A DNA stretch of 48,362 bases from Xenococcaceae cyanobacterium MO_167.B27 (GTDB lineage: Bacteria > Cyanobacteriota > Cyanobacteriia > Cyanobacteriales > Xenococcaceae), in NCBI GenBank assembly GCA_030065935.1, contig JASJCP010000064.1:1-48362 (forward strand), in the 5' to 3' direction. The notes under the pieces were generated by a model, which saw nothing but the letters and a program-made list of their open reading frames with translations, did not search any database and was not told where the DNA came from. How positions within the stretch are numbered: the first letter of the stretch is position 1; every line of letters starts with the position of its first letter. Of the stretch, positions 28,430 to 35,028 are shown piece after piece. Both the position numbers and the translations under genes were made by a program.

Positions 28430-28855
28430 CTTATTCAACTCATCCCACGTCATTTATGCGTGGGATTTCCTGTTTATTCTTCATTGGTCAACAACTCGCA
28501 GACGGAGTCGGGGGCTTGAAATATAGTCCATAAGTTGAGCAGACTAAGCCATTAAATTGGCTAGGTTAACGGTAAGCGTTAAAGTTCCTACCTTGGGGTG
28601 CGTGCCAGCCTCGAAGCTCCTAGAACCAAGTGGTTAAACAGGTTTAATTGGGTTAAACTAGTGCTGCTTGGATAGTACCGACCCTTAACATTGTGGAGGC
28701 AAACATTACGAAGTCGAAGCAGGCTCCGTCGAGTACCTTCGACCCCAGAAATGGGAGGTTTTAAAGCTAGGTTTCCAACCAAAAAACCTGGATTTATTTG
28801 TCAACCCTGACTCGCAATTCCGACCCGCTAGTCCCTCGCGGGTCGGAATTGCAAG
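28430..28855 (-). mobile_element. Probable IS200/IS605-like right-end scar
   Basis: Part of a 780-bp gene-free stretch (28219-29000). Near its left end a hairpin (atcccacg 28442-28449, cgtgggat 28459-28466) is followed by ttcctg and cttcattggtc (28479-28489). The same order, hairpin then ttcctg then cttcattggtc, recurs at 35045-35081 beside another scar, so both belong to one repeat family. Hairpin ends of this kind are typical of IS200/IS605 elements, whose right end also encodes guide RNA for TnpB. At the other side lies a perfect 15-bp hairpin (28814-28828 with 28838-28852). No tnpA or tnpB survives. A 64-codon minus-strand frame at 28588-28782 is not recognisable. Confidence 0.35.
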
Positions 28856-29000: not shown

Positions 29001-30524
29001 ATGGTAAAGAGCGATAATAGACAACAAACTTTACTGGATCTATTGATTGGAGATGAGGAACATCCCGCCCTAGTTGCTCCAGAGCGACCGACTATAAGCT
29101 ACAAAAATCTAAAACAGCAAATTGTAGATCTGGCAGCACAACTCAATCAATTAGGGATTGGTCGTGGCGATCGCATGGCGATCGCTATGGCTAATGGTCC
29201 CGAAATGGTTGTCACCTATCTAGTGGCAGCGATGTGTGGGACAGCAGCACCCCTCAATCCTAAATATTCAGCAGCAGAATTTGCTTTCTATTATGAAGAC
29301 ATCAACGCTAGTGCATTAATTGTGTTGGATGAAGGAGTAGCAGCAGCTAAAGAAGCTCTTACGGACAAAATGCTGCTCATTCAAGCAACATTACAACCAG
29401 AGGGACTGTCTTTTAGTCTTCAAGGAGGTCAGAAACGAGAGCCAAGACTGACTGAGTTGGCTCAACCCGATGATATTGCGATGATTCTGCACACTAGTGG
29501 CACAACTAGCAGACCCAAGAGAGTACCTATTAGACATCGAAATCTAGCTACTTCTGCCAGTAATATCATCGGCACTTACAATCTAACAGCAAAAGATCGT
29601 TCCCTTTGTGTAATGCCTCTATTTCATGTTCATGGTTTAGTCGCTTCGATGCTCTCTACTTTATCTTCTGGCGGAACAGTAATTGTTCCAGTTGGTGGAT
29701 TTAATGCTCTGGAATTTTGGAAACTGTTGGCGAACTTTCAGCCTACTTGGTATTCCGCAGTACCAACTATGCACCAGTTACTATTATCTCGGGCAAGTCG
29801 TAATCAAGATGCGATCGCCAAAAGTAAGCTAAGATTTATTCGCTCTAGTAGTTCTTCTCTGCCTCCAGTTGTATTAGAAAGTCTAGAAAAAACTTTTAAT
29901 GCACCAGTACTCGAAGCATACAGTATGACTGAAGCTTCACACCAAATGACCTCTAATCCTTTACCCCCCGCAGAACATAAAGCAGGAACAGTAGGCTATG
30001 GCTTCGGTGTAGAAGTTGGCATTATGGACGAGGCAGGAAATCTGTTAGAAAAAGGTCAATTAGGGGAAATAGTAGTTAAAGCACCCAATGTAGTTGATGG
30101 TTACGAAAATAATCCTGAAGCTAACGCCAAGGCATTTACTAACGGTTGGTTTCGCACTGGCGATCAAGGAGTAATCGATGAATCTGGTTATTTATCTCTT
30201 ACAGGGCGTATCAAAGAATTAATTAATCGCGGTGGAGAAAAAATCTCTCCTTTGGAAATAGATAATGTGATTCTCCGTAATCCCGCAGTGGATGAAGTTC
30301 TCACTTTTGCAGCCCCTCACAAAATCCTTGGTGAAGATGTCCATGCTGCGGTTGTCTTAAAAGAAACTATAGATGAAAAAGAATTAAAGCAATACTGCTC
30401 ACAGTATTTAGCAGATTTTAAAGTCCCTCGTAAGTTTCACTTCTTAGAAGCTCTACCCCGAGGTGCAACAGGAAAGCCTCAAAGACTCAAAATGGCAGAA
30501 TTACTCGGAATTACCGCAGACTAA
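29001..30524 (+). CDS. Acyl-CoA synthetase, oxalyl-CoA-synthetase-like
   Basis: A 507-residue AMP-forming ligase of the ANL superfamily. The adenylate-binding loop reads ILHTSGTTSRPKRVPIRHRN. The SGTTSRPK variant, in place of the usual SGTTGxPK, is typical of plant AAE3 oxalyl-CoA synthetases and relatives. Further motifs are VLEAYSMTEASHQMTSNPLP (A5), GWFRTGDQGVIDESGYLSLT (A7), GRIKELINRGGEKISPLEID (A8) and PRGATGKPQRLKM with the catalytic lysine (A10). Length matches AAE3-type enzymes (about 500-515). The substrate is not proven: oxalate or another short carboxylate is most likely. It heads a plus-strand run with a PanE-like reductase and a tricarboxylate transporter. Confidence 0.8.
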   Translation: MVKSDNRQQTLLDLLIGDEEHPALVAPERPTISYKNLKQQIVDLAAQLNQLGIGRGDRMAIAMANGPEMVVTYLVAAMCGTAAPLNPKYSAAEFAFYYEDINASALIVLDEGVAAAKEALTDKMLLIQATLQPEGLSFSLQGGQKREPRLTELAQPDDIAMILHTSGTTSRPKRVPIRHRNLATSASNIIGTYNLTAKDRSLCVMPLFHVHGLVASMLSTLSSGGTVIVPVGGFNALEFWKLLANFQPTWYSAVPTMHQLLLSRASRNQDAIAKSKLRFIRSSSSSLPPVVLESLEKTFNAPVLEAYSMTEASHQMTSNPLPPAEHKAGTVGYGFGVEVGIMDEAGNLLEKGQLGEIVVKAPNVVDGYENNPEANAKAFTNGWFRTGDQGVIDESGYLSLTGRIKELINRGGEKISPLEIDNVILRNPAVDEVLTFAAPHKILGEDVHAAVVLKETIDEKELKQYCSQYLADFKVPRKFHFLEALPRGATGKPQRLKMAELLGITAD

Positions 30525-30607
30525 ATCAGTAATTAAGGATGAAGCATGAACCTTAGATGTTGTGCATTCAAAAGTAATCAGTAATTAGCAAGAACGCAAG
30601 AGCGCAA

Positions 30608-30668
30608 CTAACCACTAACCACTAACCACTAACCACTAACCACTAACTACTAACTACTAACTACTAAC
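30608..30668. repeat. Heptamer tandem repeat (CTAACCA/CTAACTA)
   Basis: Five copies of ctaacca, three of ctaacta and a partial one fill the space directly before the reductase start codon at 30674. No Shine-Dalgarno sequence is recognisable there, so the repeat occupies the whole ribosome-binding region. Changes in copy number could alter translation or spacing; this is inference. Confidence 0.9.
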
Positions 30669-30673
30669 AATCA

Positions 30674-31666
30674 ATGAAAATTTGTATTTTCGGTGCTGGA
30701 GCAATTGGCAGCTATCTGGGAGCGAAATTAGCTAAATTACCACGCTCTGAGGTAGAAGTTACCCTAATTGCCCGAGGTAAACAACTCGAAGCACTGCAAA
30801 CTCAAGGGCTAAAGCTGGAAGAAAATGGTTCAGAAGAAACCATCGATAATTTTTTTGCTACCGATGACGTTAACACTGTCGAACCCCAGGATGCAATTTT
30901 TGTAACAGTTAAAGCTCAGAGTTTACCCAAAGTAGCACCTTCTTTGCCAGCTTTATACGGGCAAGCAACTATGGTAGTTATGGCGCAAAACGGCATTCCC
31001 TGGTGGTATTTTCGTGAAACAGGGGGAGAATATGAACATTATATAATTCGGGCGGTAGATCCTGAAGGCACAATAGAAACAAATATCCCCATTAAGCAAG
31101 TTATCGGTTGTGTGGTTTATCCAGCAACAGAATTAGTCGCCCCGGGAGTAGTTAGGCACATAGAAGGCGATCGCTTTTCCCTCGGCGAATTAGATGGCAC
31201 AAAAAGCGATCGCCTCAAGCAACTGGCTCAAGTGCTACGTCAAGCTAATCTTAAAGCTCCAGTACGCAACCAAATTCGCAATGAGTTGTGGGTCAAACTT
31301 TGGGGTAATTTGGCTTTTAATCCCATCAGCGCACTTACTGGAGCTACTTTAGACCGCATTTGTGAATATTCTTTGACCAGAGAGTTAGCTCGTAATATGA
31401 TGTTGGAAGCAAAAGCGATCGCAGAAAAATTAGGTGTAAAATTTGGCATTTCTCTGGAGCAGAGAATTGAAGGTGCGAGGAATGTTGGAGCGCACAAAAC
31501 TTCGATGCTACAAGACATTGAAGCTGGTCGTATGACAGAAATAGATGCTTTAGTAGGAGCAGCGATCGAACTGGGAGAATTGACCGATACTCCAACACCC
31601 CATCTAAGTTCTATTTATGCCAGTGTGAAATTGCTAGAGCAAACTATTCTGGCAAATTCTGTTTAG
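30674..31666 (+). CDS. 2-dehydropantoate 2-reductase family protein (PanE-like)
   Basis: A 330-residue NADP-dependent reductase. The nucleotide-binding start is MKICIFGAGAIGSYLGAKLA. The conserved VTVKAQSLPKVAPSL and VVMAQNGIPWW (catalytic-site region) follow, then NELWVKLWGNLAFNPISALT with the catalytic lysine, and MLQDIEAGRMTEIDALVGAA near the end. PanE reduces ketopantoate to pantoate for coenzyme A synthesis, but many relatives act on other 2-oxo acids. Its place between a carboxylate-CoA ligase and a tricarboxylate transporter leaves open whether it serves CoA synthesis or the carboxylate pathway. Confidence 0.85.
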   Translation: MKICIFGAGAIGSYLGAKLAKLPRSEVEVTLIARGKQLEALQTQGLKLEENGSEETIDNFFATDDVNTVEPQDAIFVTVKAQSLPKVAPSLPALYGQATMVVMAQNGIPWWYFRETGGEYEHYIIRAVDPEGTIETNIPIKQVIGCVVYPATELVAPGVVRHIEGDRFSLGELDGTKSDRLKQLAQVLRQANLKAPVRNQIRNELWVKLWGNLAFNPISALTGATLDRICEYSLTRELARNMMLEAKAIAEKLGVKFGISLEQRIEGARNVGAHKTSMLQDIEAGRMTEIDALVGAAIELGELTDTPTPHLSSIYASVKLLEQTILANSV

Positions 31667-31935
31667 CAGGATTATCTAAGCAATCGTGAAGTGGCTATGT
31701 AGGTTCACAATTTAGATAACTTTTCTTGTTGAAATCTTTATCTAGTAAGGGTACTAGCTATCGTAGGATCTAACTTGTCAAACCAGTAGCCAAGGGCGCA
31801 AGGCACTTTATGCCAGGATGCTTCCAACAATATAAACCTAATCAAAAATTTGACAATAGCTTCCTAGAATAAATATACATTTCGGAAAACTTATAAACAA
31901 CTTCGACACAAAACTTGAGGTAAAAATTACAACCT

Positions 31936-32979
31936 ATGAATATCAAAACAGGATTTTTAGTTGCTTTACTGGCAATGGGAACTACAGTAACCGCCTGCAA
32001 TAATTCCTCAGAAACAGCCTCCGAAGCTGTATTTACTCAAGAAGGGACAGCAGAAACAGTAGCAGCAACAGCAGCAACCTCTGACTGGGAACCGAAAAAG
32101 CCAATTGAATTCGTCATCATGGCTGGCAAAGGTGGTGGTGCAGATAAAATGGCGCGGTTAATGCAGACGATTGTTCAGAAACACAACCTGGCATCTAAGC
32201 CGTTAGTCCCTCTCAATAAAGGCGGTGGTTCTGGTGCAGAGGCGTTACAGTATCTAAAGTCTAAAGAAGGAGACAACTACACCATTATGGTGACTCTCAA
32301 TAGCTTCTATACAACTCCTTTACGACAACCCAACCTAAACGTGGATATTTCTACATTTACCCCAATTGCTCGTATGGCTGAAGATACTTTCCTTCTTTGG
32401 GTAAATAAAGATAGCGGTATTACTAATTTTGATGAGTTTGTAGCAGCAGCTAAAGAAGCGGACAAAGAATGGTTGATGGCGGGAACAGGAAAAGGTCAAG
32501 AAGATGAAATTTTGACTAACTTCCTCAATAGCAACTACGATCTAGATATGACCTATATTCCTCTAAAAGGTGGCGGTGATGTCGCCAAGCAATTAGCAGG
32601 GAAGCAGGTTAACTCTACTGTTAATAACCCTTCAGAAGCTTTAGGCTTTTATGAAGAAGGTAGTTTTGTTCCTGTTGCCTCTTTTACCGCCAATCGTCTA
32701 GAACAGTTCCCCGACACACCGACTTTTGAAGAGATGGGTCAAGACTTTAGCTACTTTATGCAGCGTAGTGTGGTGGGCGCGCCAGGAATGAGTCCAGAAG
32801 CTCAAGCATATTACCAAAATGTGTTTGAACAAGTTTACCAAACACCAGAGTGGCAAGAATACATGAAATCTAAGAGTTTAAAAGGAGAGTTTATTACTGG
32901 TAGCAACCTGGAATCTTATTGGATGAATCAAGAAGAAAAGCATAAAGAACTCCTGAAAAATACTGGCGAAATCAAATAA
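31936..32979 (+). CDS. tctC: Tripartite tricarboxylate transporter, substrate-binding protein TctC
   Basis: A 347-residue periplasmic binding protein of the Bug/TctC family. The signal sequence ends in a lipobox at Cys21 (MGTTVTAC), so it is lipid-anchored, which is unusual for TctC proteins of Proteobacteria, most of which are soluble. A Ser/Thr/Ala linker (about 22-50) is followed by the domain start PIEFVIMAGKGGGADKMARL, the ligand-loop region LNKGGGSGAEALQYLKSK and ATGTGKGQ-like MAGTGKGQEDEIL. TctC delivers the carboxylate to the TctAB membrane complex. The tctB start follows after 19 bp, so this is an operon. Confidence 0.9.
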   Translation: MNIKTGFLVALLAMGTTVTACNNSSETASEAVFTQEGTAETVAATAATSDWEPKKPIEFVIMAGKGGGADKMARLMQTIVQKHNLASKPLVPLNKGGGSGAEALQYLKSKEGDNYTIMVTLNSFYTTPLRQPNLNVDISTFTPIARMAEDTFLLWVNKDSGITNFDEFVAAAKEADKEWLMAGTGKGQEDEILTNFLNSNYDLDMTYIPLKGGGDVAKQLAGKQVNSTVNNPSEALGFYEEGSFVPVASFTANRLEQFPDTPTFEEMGQDFSYFMQRSVVGAPGMSPEAQAYYQNVFEQVYQTPEWQEYMKSKSLKGEFITGSNLESYWMNQEEKHKELLKNTGEIK

Positions 32980-32998
32980 ACTATAAGCAAGGAAAACA

Positions 32999-33502
32999 AT
33001 GTCAACTAGACAAGCAGATATCCTGGGGTCGATCGCTCTAGCAATCCTCTCTATTTACTTCATGAACGAGAGTGCCAAGCTACCAATTGGCTACATTCCA
33101 GGTGAAGGACTGGGTGGAGGAGCTTTTCCCTTTTGGGCTTCTCTAGGAATGCTGATTTGTTGTATTTGGAATGGTATTAACTGGCTCGCCAGAACCAGCG
33201 AAAGCTCATGTTCCCATAATCTCTACCTAAATCAACAGGGTTTACGCTCGTTTGCCATCAATTCTGGCTCTCTAGTAGTAGCCCTAGGGATAATTCCTTT
33301 TATCGGGATGTATGGAGCAGTGATGTTGTTTTTATTCTCTCACCTGCGCTTTATCGGCAAGCGTTCTTGGCTGCTGACCACAATTCTAACTCTGACTGCT
33401 CCGATCGTAATGTTTTTCTTTTTTGAGGTGGCATTAACAATCACTCTGCCTAAAGGCATGACCGAGCCTTTATTTTACCCACTATATGACCTTTTTCTCT
33501 GA
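32999..33502 (+). CDS. tctB: Tripartite tricarboxylate transporter, small membrane subunit TctB
   Basis: A 167-residue membrane protein with four predicted helices: SIALAILSIYFMNESAKLPI; FPFWASLGMLICCIWNGINW; INSGSLVVALGIIPFIGMYG with AVMLFLFSHL; and LLTTILTLTAPIVMFFFFEV. The GGAFPFWASLGMLI segment is characteristic of TctB. TctB is the small, poorly conserved partner of TctA in proton- or sodium-driven carboxylate uptake. The tctA start follows after 17 bp. Confidence 0.9.
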   Translation: MSTRQADILGSIALAILSIYFMNESAKLPIGYIPGEGLGGGAFPFWASLGMLICCIWNGINWLARTSESSCSHNLYLNQQGLRSFAINSGSLVVALGIIPFIGMYGAVMLFLFSHLRFIGKRSWLLTTILTLTAPIVMFFFFEVALTITLPKGMTEPLFYPLYDLFL

Positions 33503-33519
33503 GCTTTTTCTCAGTAACT

Positions 33520-35028
33520 ATGGATATCCTACAACCTCTGCTCGATGGCTTCTCGATTGTGTTCCAACCGATAAATTTATTGCTGGTTTTGTTCGGTTGT
33601 ACTCTGGGTTTATTTATCGGTGTTATCCCTGGACTAGGTTCGGTCAATGGTGTCGCTATTTTACTTCCCATGACCTTTTTAGTGCCACCTACTTCCGCAA
33701 TTATCTTTCTTGGTGCAATCTACTACGGTGCAATGTATGGAGGGGCAATTAGCGCGATAATTCTGGGGATTCCTGGGGCTTCGACGGCGGTAGCAACTAC
33801 TTTTGATGGTCGTCCTCTTGCTCTGGGGGGGAAAGGCGATCGCGCTCTGATTTCAGCAGCGATCGCCTCATTTGTCGGGGGGACTATTTCAGTAGTCTTG
33901 TTTACCGTTTTAGCTCCTACCCTAGCAAGATTTGCCCTCGCTTTTGGACCACCAGAAGAGTTTGCTTTGATGTTACTGGCTTTTGCTACTTTTGTGGGTT
34001 TAGGGGGCAAAGATATCCCCAAAACTTTATTTTCAATTTGCTTAGGTCTAGTATTGAGTGCAGTGGGATTGGATATCGTCAGTGGTGAGCCTAGATTGAT
34101 CTTTGGCAATATTCCAGGCTTCTATTCTGGTATCAACTTCCTCGTCTTGGCGATCGGAATATATGGTATTGGTGAGATGCTTTGGACACTGGAAAATAGC
34201 AACAATAAATTACAACTATTCCCAACCAAAATTTCTATTAAAAGTATCATTAATACTGCCAAAGACCTCAAGCATAATCTTAAAGCAATGCTCATGGGTT
34301 CTTTTCTGGGCTATTTCGTAGGCGTTTTACCAGCAGCAGGTGCTACCCCTGCTTCCCTGATGTCTTATGGAATAGCAAAAATGATGTCTAAAAATCCCGA
34401 TTCATTTGGGAAAGGAAATCTTGATGGTGTGGTTGCACCAGAAGCAGCTAATAACTCTGCTAGTACTGGTTCAATGTTGCCGATGATGACTTTGGGAATT
34501 CCTGGCTCTCCCACTACCGCAATTTTATTAGGAGGAATGGTCATTTGGGGTTTAGAACCAGGACCACGCTTATTTGTTGATAATCAGGAATTTGTTTGGA
34601 GTTCGGTTGCAAGTTTATATGTAGCAAATCTGGTGGCACTAATTGTTAATCTAGCTTTGATTCCTGTCTTTGTCTGGGTACTGAAACTGCCAGTAACAAT
34701 TCTTGTACCATTAATCTTCGTCCTCTGCATTATCGGGGGCTATGCGCCAACCCAGAATATGCACGATGTTTGGTTAATGCTCATCTTTGGTATTGTAGGT
34801 TATCTCTTACGTAAATTAAATTATCCCCTCGCCCCAGTAGTTCTCGCGATCGTTTTAGGACCTCTGGCAGAAACCTCGATGCGACAATCATTACTAATGA
34901 ATCAAGGTTCTCCCACCATATTTTTTGAGCGTCCCATATCTTTAACAATTATCATTTTTACCGTTATTCTGTTTTTACTACCTCTACTGAAAAGGCGCAA
35001 GCGCGTTGGTAAAGTGACATCCTCCTAG
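33520..35028 (+). CDS. tctA: Tripartite tricarboxylate transporter, large membrane subunit TctA
   Basis: A 502-residue membrane protein with about 11-12 helices. The two family signatures are present: GVIPGLGSVNGVAILLPMTF (with GAIYYGAMYGGAISAIILGI) and, in the second half, GVLPAAGATPASLMSYGIAK followed by EAANNSASTGSMLPMMTLGI. These inverted repeats form the transport core. Length is normal (about 500). The final residues (VTSS and stop) are encoded by bases 35014-35028, which look like the end of an IS remnant (minus strand ggaggatgtcac), so the original C-terminus was probably trimmed by a few residues. Confidence 0.93.
   Translation: MDILQPLLDGFSIVFQPINLLLVLFGCTLGLFIGVIPGLGSVNGVAILLPMTFLVPPTSAIIFLGAIYYGAMYGGAISAIILGIPGASTAVATTFDGRPLALGGKGDRALISAAIASFVGGTISVVLFTVLAPTLARFALAFGPPEEFALMLLAFATFVGLGGKDIPKTLFSICLGLVLSAVGLDIVSGEPRLIFGNIPGFYSGINFLVLAIGIYGIGEMLWTLENSNNKLQLFPTKISIKSIINTAKDLKHNLKAMLMGSFLGYFVGVLPAAGATPASLMSYGIAKMMSKNPDSFGKGNLDGVVAPEAANNSASTGSMLPMMTLGIPGSPTTAILLGGMVIWGLEPGPRLFVDNQEFVWSSVASLYVANLVALIVNLALIPVFVWVLKLPVTILVPLIFVLCIIGGYAPTQNMHDVWLMLIFGIVGYLLRKLNYPLAPVVLAIVLGPLAETSMRQSLLMNQGSPTIFFERPISLTIIIFTVILFLLPLLKRRKRVGKVTSS

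Follow-up and report, generated by a model that had tools for sequence, protein, structure and literature searches.

The subject of this report is a row of five genes, a candidate cassette for oxalate uptake and assimilation, in Xenococcaceae cyanobacterium MO_167.B27. The stretch of DNA that was analyzed (the window) spans 48,362 nt, positions 1 to 48,362 of contig JASJCP010000064.1 (assembly GCA_030065935.1), and comes from a 7.02 Mb draft genome of 282 contigs with a completeness of 98.55%. RbcL and PsbD, named by eye from their N-termini, are present in kin of the same order and class. At positions 29001-35028, five intact open reading frames (ORFs) lie head to tail on the + strand and encode a ligase, a PanE-like reductase, and TctC, TctB, and TctA, which make up a complete tripartite tricarboxylate transporter (TTT) set by Pfam. 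All five proteins lie above the Pfam gathering score (listed as observed versus gathering score), confirming the initial annotation of an SGTTSRPK-bearing ligase, a PanE-like gene, and TctCBA in a row.

29001..30524, + strand: oxalyl-CoA-synthetase-type AMP-forming ligase, 507 aa (AMP-binding, 246.7 vs 29.9 bits)
30674..31666, + strand: PanE/ApbA-family reductase, probable oxalyl-CoA reductase (PanE2 type), 330 aa (ApbA_C, 103.4 vs 22.7 bits)
31936..32979, + strand: TctC solute-binding protein, probable oxalate receptor, predicted lipoprotein, 347 aa (PF03401, 90.6 vs 27 bits)
31987..31998, + strand: lipobox codons of TctC, V-T-A-C, residues 18-21 (sequence reading)
32999..33502, + strand: TctB small membrane subunit, 167 aa (PF07331, 49.8 vs 29.1 bits)
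33520..35028, + strand: TctA large membrane subunit, 502 aa (PF01970, 496.2 vs 28.9 bits)

The intergenic gaps are, in gene order, 149, 269, 19, and 17 nt. Because the last two are so short, TctCBA was considered a tight unit. It is possible that a single transcript covers all five genes; a scan of the cluster gave promoter-like and terminator-like matches at chance level only.

The ligase and the reductase

The description of the ligase as oxalyl-CoA-synthetase-like, made in the initial annotation, is borne out by its motifs and its closest structural relatives. The protein carries HTSGTTSRPK, PLFHVHG, RFIRSSSSSL, and EAYSMTEASHQMTSNPLPP, and the four top PDB sequences are all oxalate-CoA ligases (5ie0, E 1.1e-126; 6qjz, 3.2e-126; 8aff, 4.8e-118; 8atd, 7.7e-88), the next match being a fatty acyl-CoA synthetase (3r44, E 2e-62). 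Alignments with three PDB sequences reveal that the SGTTSRPK/SGTTSTPK and MTEA[ST]H motifs of the oxalate-CoA ligases are kept in the window ligase. Among 56 rows of oxalyl-CoA synthetase (OCS)-type ligases, which were drawn from the fetched loci and in which two rows are one gene, SGTTSRPK occurs in 55 and MTEA-x-H in all 56, versus 0 of nine other AMP-binding rows for either motif. Our guess is that the histidine of MTEA-x-H contacts oxalate. Long-chain fatty acids were ruled out as the substrate by the PDB ranking and the motifs.

Elsewhere, the same genome encodes a further OCS-type ligase (L113:6093-8003, contig C117), which shares these motifs and is 54-56% identical to that of the window. 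This protein also includes a carrier-protein domain (PF00550), and the next ORF is a long one that runs off the stretch (L113:8442-14000) and resembles a nonribosomal peptide synthetase by eye. Judging by this arrangement, the fused ligase may be a loading module of the oxalyl type for a peptide natural product.

The reductase passes the NCBIfam model NF005089, named 2-dehydropantoate 2-reductase, with 449 bits against a cut-off of 223. The same model is passed by 5/5 scanned proteobacterial relatives at oxalate-type loci (Methylobacterium, Cupriavidus, Phyllobacterium, and two others). By family and context, the PanE-like gene most likely encodes an oxalyl-CoA reductase of the PanE2 type, which would make glyoxylate. 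In the partial texts of the papers cited throughout, PanE2 of M. extorquens is characterized and used for the conversion of oxalyl-CoA to glyoxylate (PMC8411744), is assayed in vitro by a second group (PMC9485241), and serves in yeast as an oxalyl-CoA reductase (PMC12686821); two of these texts call the reaction reversible (PMC9485241, PMC7486775). C. necator ApbA2, which is 51% identical to PanE2, is encoded near frc-oxc, and deletion of apbA2 leads to slower growth on oxalate (PMC7486775). The M. bullatum and Cupriavidus homologues that we compared are 51-52% identical to each other, which fits the published value for ApbA2 and PanE2.

The nearest named reductases are mostly from Nostoc, Desmonostoc, and Calothrix, with one Chloroflexi record equally near. 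Cultured relatives that have both the ligase and the reductase include Calothrix sp. NIES-4105 and Dulcicalothrix desertica PCC 7102. The genome of the window encodes a second PF08546 protein (54 bits vs a cut-off of 22.7), and thus the window reductase need not serve pantothenate synthesis. In view of this second gene and of the neighbors of the first, we rejected the idea that the PanE-like gene serves mainly in ketopantoate reduction.

Gene neighborhoods and the transporter

The surroundings of related reductases were surveyed at 80 loci, the best 80 of at least 588 stretches confirmed in genome contigs by a scan with the reductase alignment, and marker genes were called by tblastn identity limits within the flank examined. 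An OCS-type ligase is present at 39 of the 80 loci and frc and/or oxc at 16, with no locus carrying both; the chance of zero overlap is 3.8e-6. As frc and the ligase are alternative makers of oxalyl-CoA, their mutual exclusion is what the oxalate hypothesis predicts. Genes that form oxalyl-CoA are thereby linked to the reductase at 55/80 loci; in the window, the ligase lies 149 nt upstream.

TctA is found at 22/80 reductase loci, in several gene orders that were counted without querying TctB. The order TctC-TctA-ligase-reductase occurs at nine loci, all Roseobacteraceae or Paracoccaceae, and ligase-TctC-TctA-reductase at five, mostly Burkholderiales. The order reductase-TctC-TctA-oxc occurs at three loci, TctC-TctA-TPP enzyme-frc-reductase (TPP, thiamine pyrophosphate) at two, and other orders at three. 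The order of the window, ligase-reductase-TctC-B-A, is absent among the gene orders of these TctA-bearing loci. That these genes came together repeatedly, and in varying order, speaks for their working as a unit. The initial annotation had made conservation of the cluster a point to check: the ligase-reductase pair recurs in 12/386 cyanobacteria and in proteobacteria, and the five-gene set recurs in proteobacteria, but conservation in cyanobacteria does not extend to the transporter half.

Two further kinds of genes were noted at the reductase loci. A gene of the fumarylacetoacetate hydrolase (FAH) family neighbors the reductase at 33/80 loci (L015-L094). A TPP-dependent enzyme that fails the oxc cut-offs lies beside frc and a PanE2-type reductase at three loci (L046:3985-5718, L053:3831-5582, L013:6002-7708). 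The TPP enzyme of Cupriavidus locus L011 was considered as oxc and rejected, being 64-76% identical to those three proteins. The 80-locus count keeps such enzymes apart from oxc (as TPP2). The frc genes of L053, L012, and L135 and the oxc genes of L135, L035, and L043 pass their cut-offs.

The lipobox reported for TctC in the initial annotation is real: VTAC occupies residues 18-21 of MNIKTGFLVALLAMGTTVTAC. By eye, a lipobox-like Cys is present in 6/6 cyanobacterial TctCs versus 0/10 proteobacterial members of the window TctA clade with a readable TctC N-terminus. The window TctC shares 51-61% identity with the TctCs of proteobacterial loci in the same TctA clade, 35-42% with those at other oxalate-type loci, and 22-25% with those of other cyanobacterial TTT systems. 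TctB is 42-48% identical to its counterparts at proteobacterial loci with all five families and 34% to TctB of L135.

An IQ-TREE phylogeny of 53 TctA sequences placed the window in a clade of 13 rows with support of 100/100. In the labels of this tree, and in the survey of five-family loci, the TPP enzyme that fails the oxc cut-offs still counts as oxc. All 13 clade members lie at oxalate-type loci (ligase and reductase, or frc), although 12 of the 13 are either the window or loci obtained by way of the reductase, which leaves only L135 as independent. L135 is plasmid pLA6_002 of Paracoccaceae bacterium La 6. It was found in a plasmid search with TctA alone and is the single one of 806 records with a TctA match that exceeds 60% identity. 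Its TctA gene lies between oxc-frc, both of which pass equivalog cut-offs, and genes annotated glyA, hprA, and folD.

Other transporters were encountered along the way. The genome of the window has a second, different TctCBA-like set (L112:7718-10859, contig C224), with a TctA 43% and a TctC 22% identical to those of the window and a distant position in the TctA tree. It adjoins a large ORF that is polyketide/peptide-synthase-like by eye, and related sets occur in three other cyanobacteria (L114, L130, L131). In Pseudanabaenaceae cyanobacterium LEGE 13415 (L025:2418-6447), an ABC importer consisting of a binding protein, a permease, and an ATPase directly precedes the ligase and reductase, and such an importer also precedes them in Rhodobacteraceae SC52 (L007). 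Based on this placement, the ABC system is a possible alternative oxalate importer.

Cyanobacterial distribution and decarboxylating enzymes

In 386 genomes drawn evenly across the cyanobacterial phylum, the reductase (E <=1e-60) was found in 14, the ligase (E <=1e-160) in 13, both in 12, and TctA (E <=1e-40) in two, in agreement with the earlier remark that TTT systems are typical of Proteobacteria. The ligase and reductase genes are at most 2 kb apart in 7/12 genomes and far apart or on other contigs in 5/12. The hypergeometric probability of the ligase/reductase overlap is 6e-20, a value that overstates the evidence as 10 of the 12 genomes belong to one family. One genome, G142, has a 55% identical ligase followed by a broken reductase start.

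Within a closer set of 60 relatives, own genome included, the window-type TctA is intact only in the genome of the window. G026 retains a 94-residue TctA fragment that is 87% identical, and G049 retains TctC and the first part of TctB. In G026, the closest relative with both the ligase and the reductase, an ORF that is radical-SAM-like by eye (L121:1193-2242) lies between the two genes.

The cyanobacterial ligases group in a single clade of 18 in quick trees (SH-aLRT 97), with the L113 and L134 ligases outside. The cyanobacterial reductases form one clade of 26 rows, three of them repeats, that includes two Chloroflexi (support 89, not starred) and leaves G221 outside. TctA branches from within proteobacterial sequences, next to two metagenome-assembled genomes, one titled Gammaproteobacteria, and two Roseobacteraceae (96/89). 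With moderate confidence, the trees suggest that the operon is a mosaic of a long-resident cyanobacterial ligase-reductase pair and a transporter acquired from proteobacteria.

Known decarboxylating enzymes were sought with curated cut-offs. No oxc above the cut-off was found in 17 genomes, own included, and one of 14 control genomes passed. Neither frc nor a bicupin oxalate decarboxylase lay above its cut-off in 15 genomes, own included, with one and two controls passing, respectively.

The surroundings of the row hold two further elements. A HEARO RNA (Rfam RF02033, 110 bits, full model length) lies just 5' of the cluster at 28487-28709, and between it and the ligase there is no ORF longer than 64 aa. 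Positions 30572-30685, between the ligase and the reductase, hold a dispersed short repeat with runs of 'actaaccact', to which 46 of the 50 own-genome matches of the cluster map.

A candidate oxalate route and its relation to known systems

We consider it quite probable that the five genes together constitute a cassette for the assimilation of oxalate, in which oxalate would be taken up, converted to oxalyl-CoA, and reduced to glyoxylate without decarboxylation. Lipid-anchored TctC would bind periplasmic oxalate and pass it to the TctAB permease, which would import it by ion-coupled symport. The ligase would then spend ATP to form oxalyl-CoA, and the PanE-family reductase would use NAD(P)H to release glyoxylate and CoA. 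The glyoxylate could join the photorespiratory glycine/serine or glycerate pools. Up to glyoxylate no CO2 would be lost, and photosynthesis could supply both the ATP and the reductant. We infer oxalate as the substrate of each part, and likewise the direction of flux, co-transcription, cofactor, ion coupling, and fate of glyoxylate, from what was computed here: gene anatomy, family membership, recurrent linkage, co-occurrence, and the absence of a known decarboxylating enzyme above cut-off. The initial annotation had proposed import of a di- or tricarboxylate, perhaps oxalate or a 2-oxo acid, and its activation with CoA. Carboxylate uptake and activation remain a plausible outline, with oxalate as the best candidate; the reductase step to glyoxylate, and hence the whole short pathway, had been missed, and nothing was found that points to a 2-oxo acid or a tricarboxylate.

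A number of observations weigh against the oxalate cassette, besides the two limits given above with the TctA clade and the overlap statistic. The ligase falls below the cut-off of all 25 NCBIfam models shown, the best being FadD7 fatty-acid-CoA ligase (445 vs 650 bits). The reductase was compared with the M. bullatum homologue (53% identical), not with the M. extorquens PanE2 sequence. The ligase is missing from two genomes, G221 and G373, whose reductase is 55% identical. No marker gene was found in the flank examined at 25/80 reductase loci, with stretches shorter than 9 kb making up 11 of these 25 loci versus five of the other 55; six such loci from Nostoc and Desmonostoc (L015-17, L021-23) have no markers in their flanks, and any ligase would be elsewhere. 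On the transporter side, the gene annotated as 'Ketopantoate reductase' in L135 falls outside the PanE2 subfamily, and the window-type TTT genes have decayed in the two other cyanobacterial genomes with remnants. The sister TctA clade of 16 is mixed (11 oxalate-linked, five unlinked) and the label 'oxalate-linked' requires three changes on the TctA tree, which also means that the oxalate linkage extends beyond one TctA clade. Finally, sub-cut-off matches to oxalate decarboxylase occur in 7/15 genomes, including that of the window (29 vs 254 bits), and sub-cut-off matches to oxc in 17/17; the latter also occur in 14/14 controls and are hence unspecific. It is conceivable that cyanobacteria possess an oxalate decarboxylase of another kind.

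Part of this evidence could be accommodated by other explanations. The architecture might serve another substrate, such as malonate, tartronate, glycolate, or a hydroxy acid, with the reductase acting on the matching CoA ester or 2-oxo acid. The 25 marker-less loci and the placement of malonyl-CoA synthase among the top NCBIfam models of the ligase (283.5 vs 558 bits), itself below every cut-off, would fit this, but we hold it to be unlikely. Among PDB sequences, oxalate-CoA ligases outscore malonyl-CoA synthetase (E 1e-126 vs 3e-57), and relatives of both the reductase and TctA adjoin the oxalate enzymes frc and oxc. In addition, the string LERYGMTE occurs in three more distant ligases, which we take to be malonyl-CoA-synthetase-like and which have neither the SGTTSxPK nor the MTEA-x-H motif. 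We would give a similarly low chance to the same enzymes running in reverse, so that photorespiratory glyoxylate would be oxidized to oxalyl-CoA and released as oxalate, a form of glyoxylate disposal with the transporter re-capturing or exporting the product. The ligase family spends ATP toward oxalyl-CoA, and the ligase and TTT recur together in proteobacteria, neither of which suits a disposal route. TTT systems are, moreover, described as high-affinity, binding-protein-dependent uptake systems (PMC5994714). What speaks for reversal is the reported reversibility of the PanE2 reaction (PMC9485241, PMC7486775), the statement that oxalate is an intermediate of a cyanobacterial route of glyoxylate breakdown (PMC7486775), which the initial annotation had also mentioned, and the bicupin result of 0/15, by which oxalate would be an end product.

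That chance made neighbors of a fatty-acid-CoA ligase, a reductase for ketopantoate, and a carboxylate transporter unrelated to them appears very improbable. The standard model names would say as much (FadD7, below its cut-off; 2-dehydropantoate 2-reductase, above it), as would the gaps of 149 and 269 nt that separate ligase, reductase, and TctC. Against this, the gene set recurs in distant proteobacteria in other orders, the ligase and the reductase are found in the same cyanobacterial genomes also where the two genes are not linked, and the genome has another PanE-family gene.

Returning to the oxalate cassette, a broader proposal, which we favor with less assurance, is that an oxygenic phototroph uses oxalate from its surroundings as food, by a route that is reductive throughout, is powered by photosynthesis, and keeps both carbons. 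The resident enzyme pair would have been joined by a horizontally acquired, oxalate-specific TTT, oxalate being a newly recognized substrate for such transporters, and the same kit would have been assembled separately, with the genes in other orders, in several proteobacterial groups. The enzymes are of known kinds; what would be new is the host, the combination, the lack of a recognized decarboxylating branch, and the link between a TTT clade and oxalate.

Places where cyanobacteria live in contact with fungi, lichens, and plants are rich in oxalate. In the partial text of a 2023 survey, the known oxalotrophs are Proteobacteria, Actinobacteria, and Firmicutes, with Bacteroidetes added in 2017, and the word cyanobacteria is absent from its main text (PMC10192776). 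In the literature searched, with subscription journals mostly outside it, no paper combined 'tripartite tricarboxylate', 'oxalate', and 'oxalyl-CoA', and no report was found of cyanobacteria using oxalate via oxalyl-CoA and glyoxylate, a sequence that the partial texts describe only in other bacteria. If the proposal is true, an oxygenic photosynthetic lineage would be added to the oxalotrophs, via a carbon-keeping route. An oxalate kit could then be annotated, in cyanobacteria and also among proteobacteria (in Roseobacteraceae and Burkholderiales, for example), where the best models name a fatty-acid-CoA ligase, a 2-dehydropantoate 2-reductase, and a tricarboxylate transporter.

The candidate route shares parts with several known systems. 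The oxalyl-CoA synthetases 5ie0, 6qjz, and 8aff, which we take to be Arabidopsis AAE3, Lathyrus OCS, and yeast Pcs60, are homologous to the window ligase over nearly the full length and have the SGTTSRPK/SGTTSTPK and MTEA[ST]H motifs in common with it. These eukaryotic enzymes feed a degradation route and, unlike them, the window ligase shares its gene row with the reductase and TctCBA. The transporter differs from the TctCBA prototype, which takes citrate (PMC5994714), in that its TctA clade is tied to oxalate genes and its TctC is probably lipid-anchored. With OxlT, the oxalate:formate antiporter given as the transporter in two oxalotrophy surveys (PMC10192776, PMC12927642), it would have oxalate entry in common, but the protein family is different.

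The closest enzymatic precedent is the PanE2 route of M. extorquens. The M. bullatum homologue, found in the row FAH-reductase-OCS-type ligase, belongs to the same NCBIfam subfamily as the window reductase. M. extorquens also decarboxylates oxalyl-CoA for energy. The window system differs in having no oxc or frc above cut-off, an oxygenic phototroph as host, and a TTT attached. The ApbA2/frc-oxc locus of C. necator likewise has a PanE2-type reductase, with frc-oxc in place of the ATP-dependent ligase of the window. Once frc-oxc was deleted, C. necator no longer grew on oxalate, and a shortage of reducing power is the presumed reason (PMC7486775). Unlike frc-oxc oxalotrophy, the reductive route would yield no energy, and thus would suit a phototroph.

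Nearest in composition are the Roseobacteraceae/Paracoccaceae loci (Marivita, Rhodovulum, Maliponia, Nereida, Roseovarius), which are known from their genes and have the same five families in one row. They differ from the window in gene order and in a TctC without a lipobox, and their ligase and reductase are ∼50-56% identical to those of the window. Rhodovulum is a genus of anoxygenic phototrophs and, for this reason, our claim of novelty is confined to oxygenic phototrophs.

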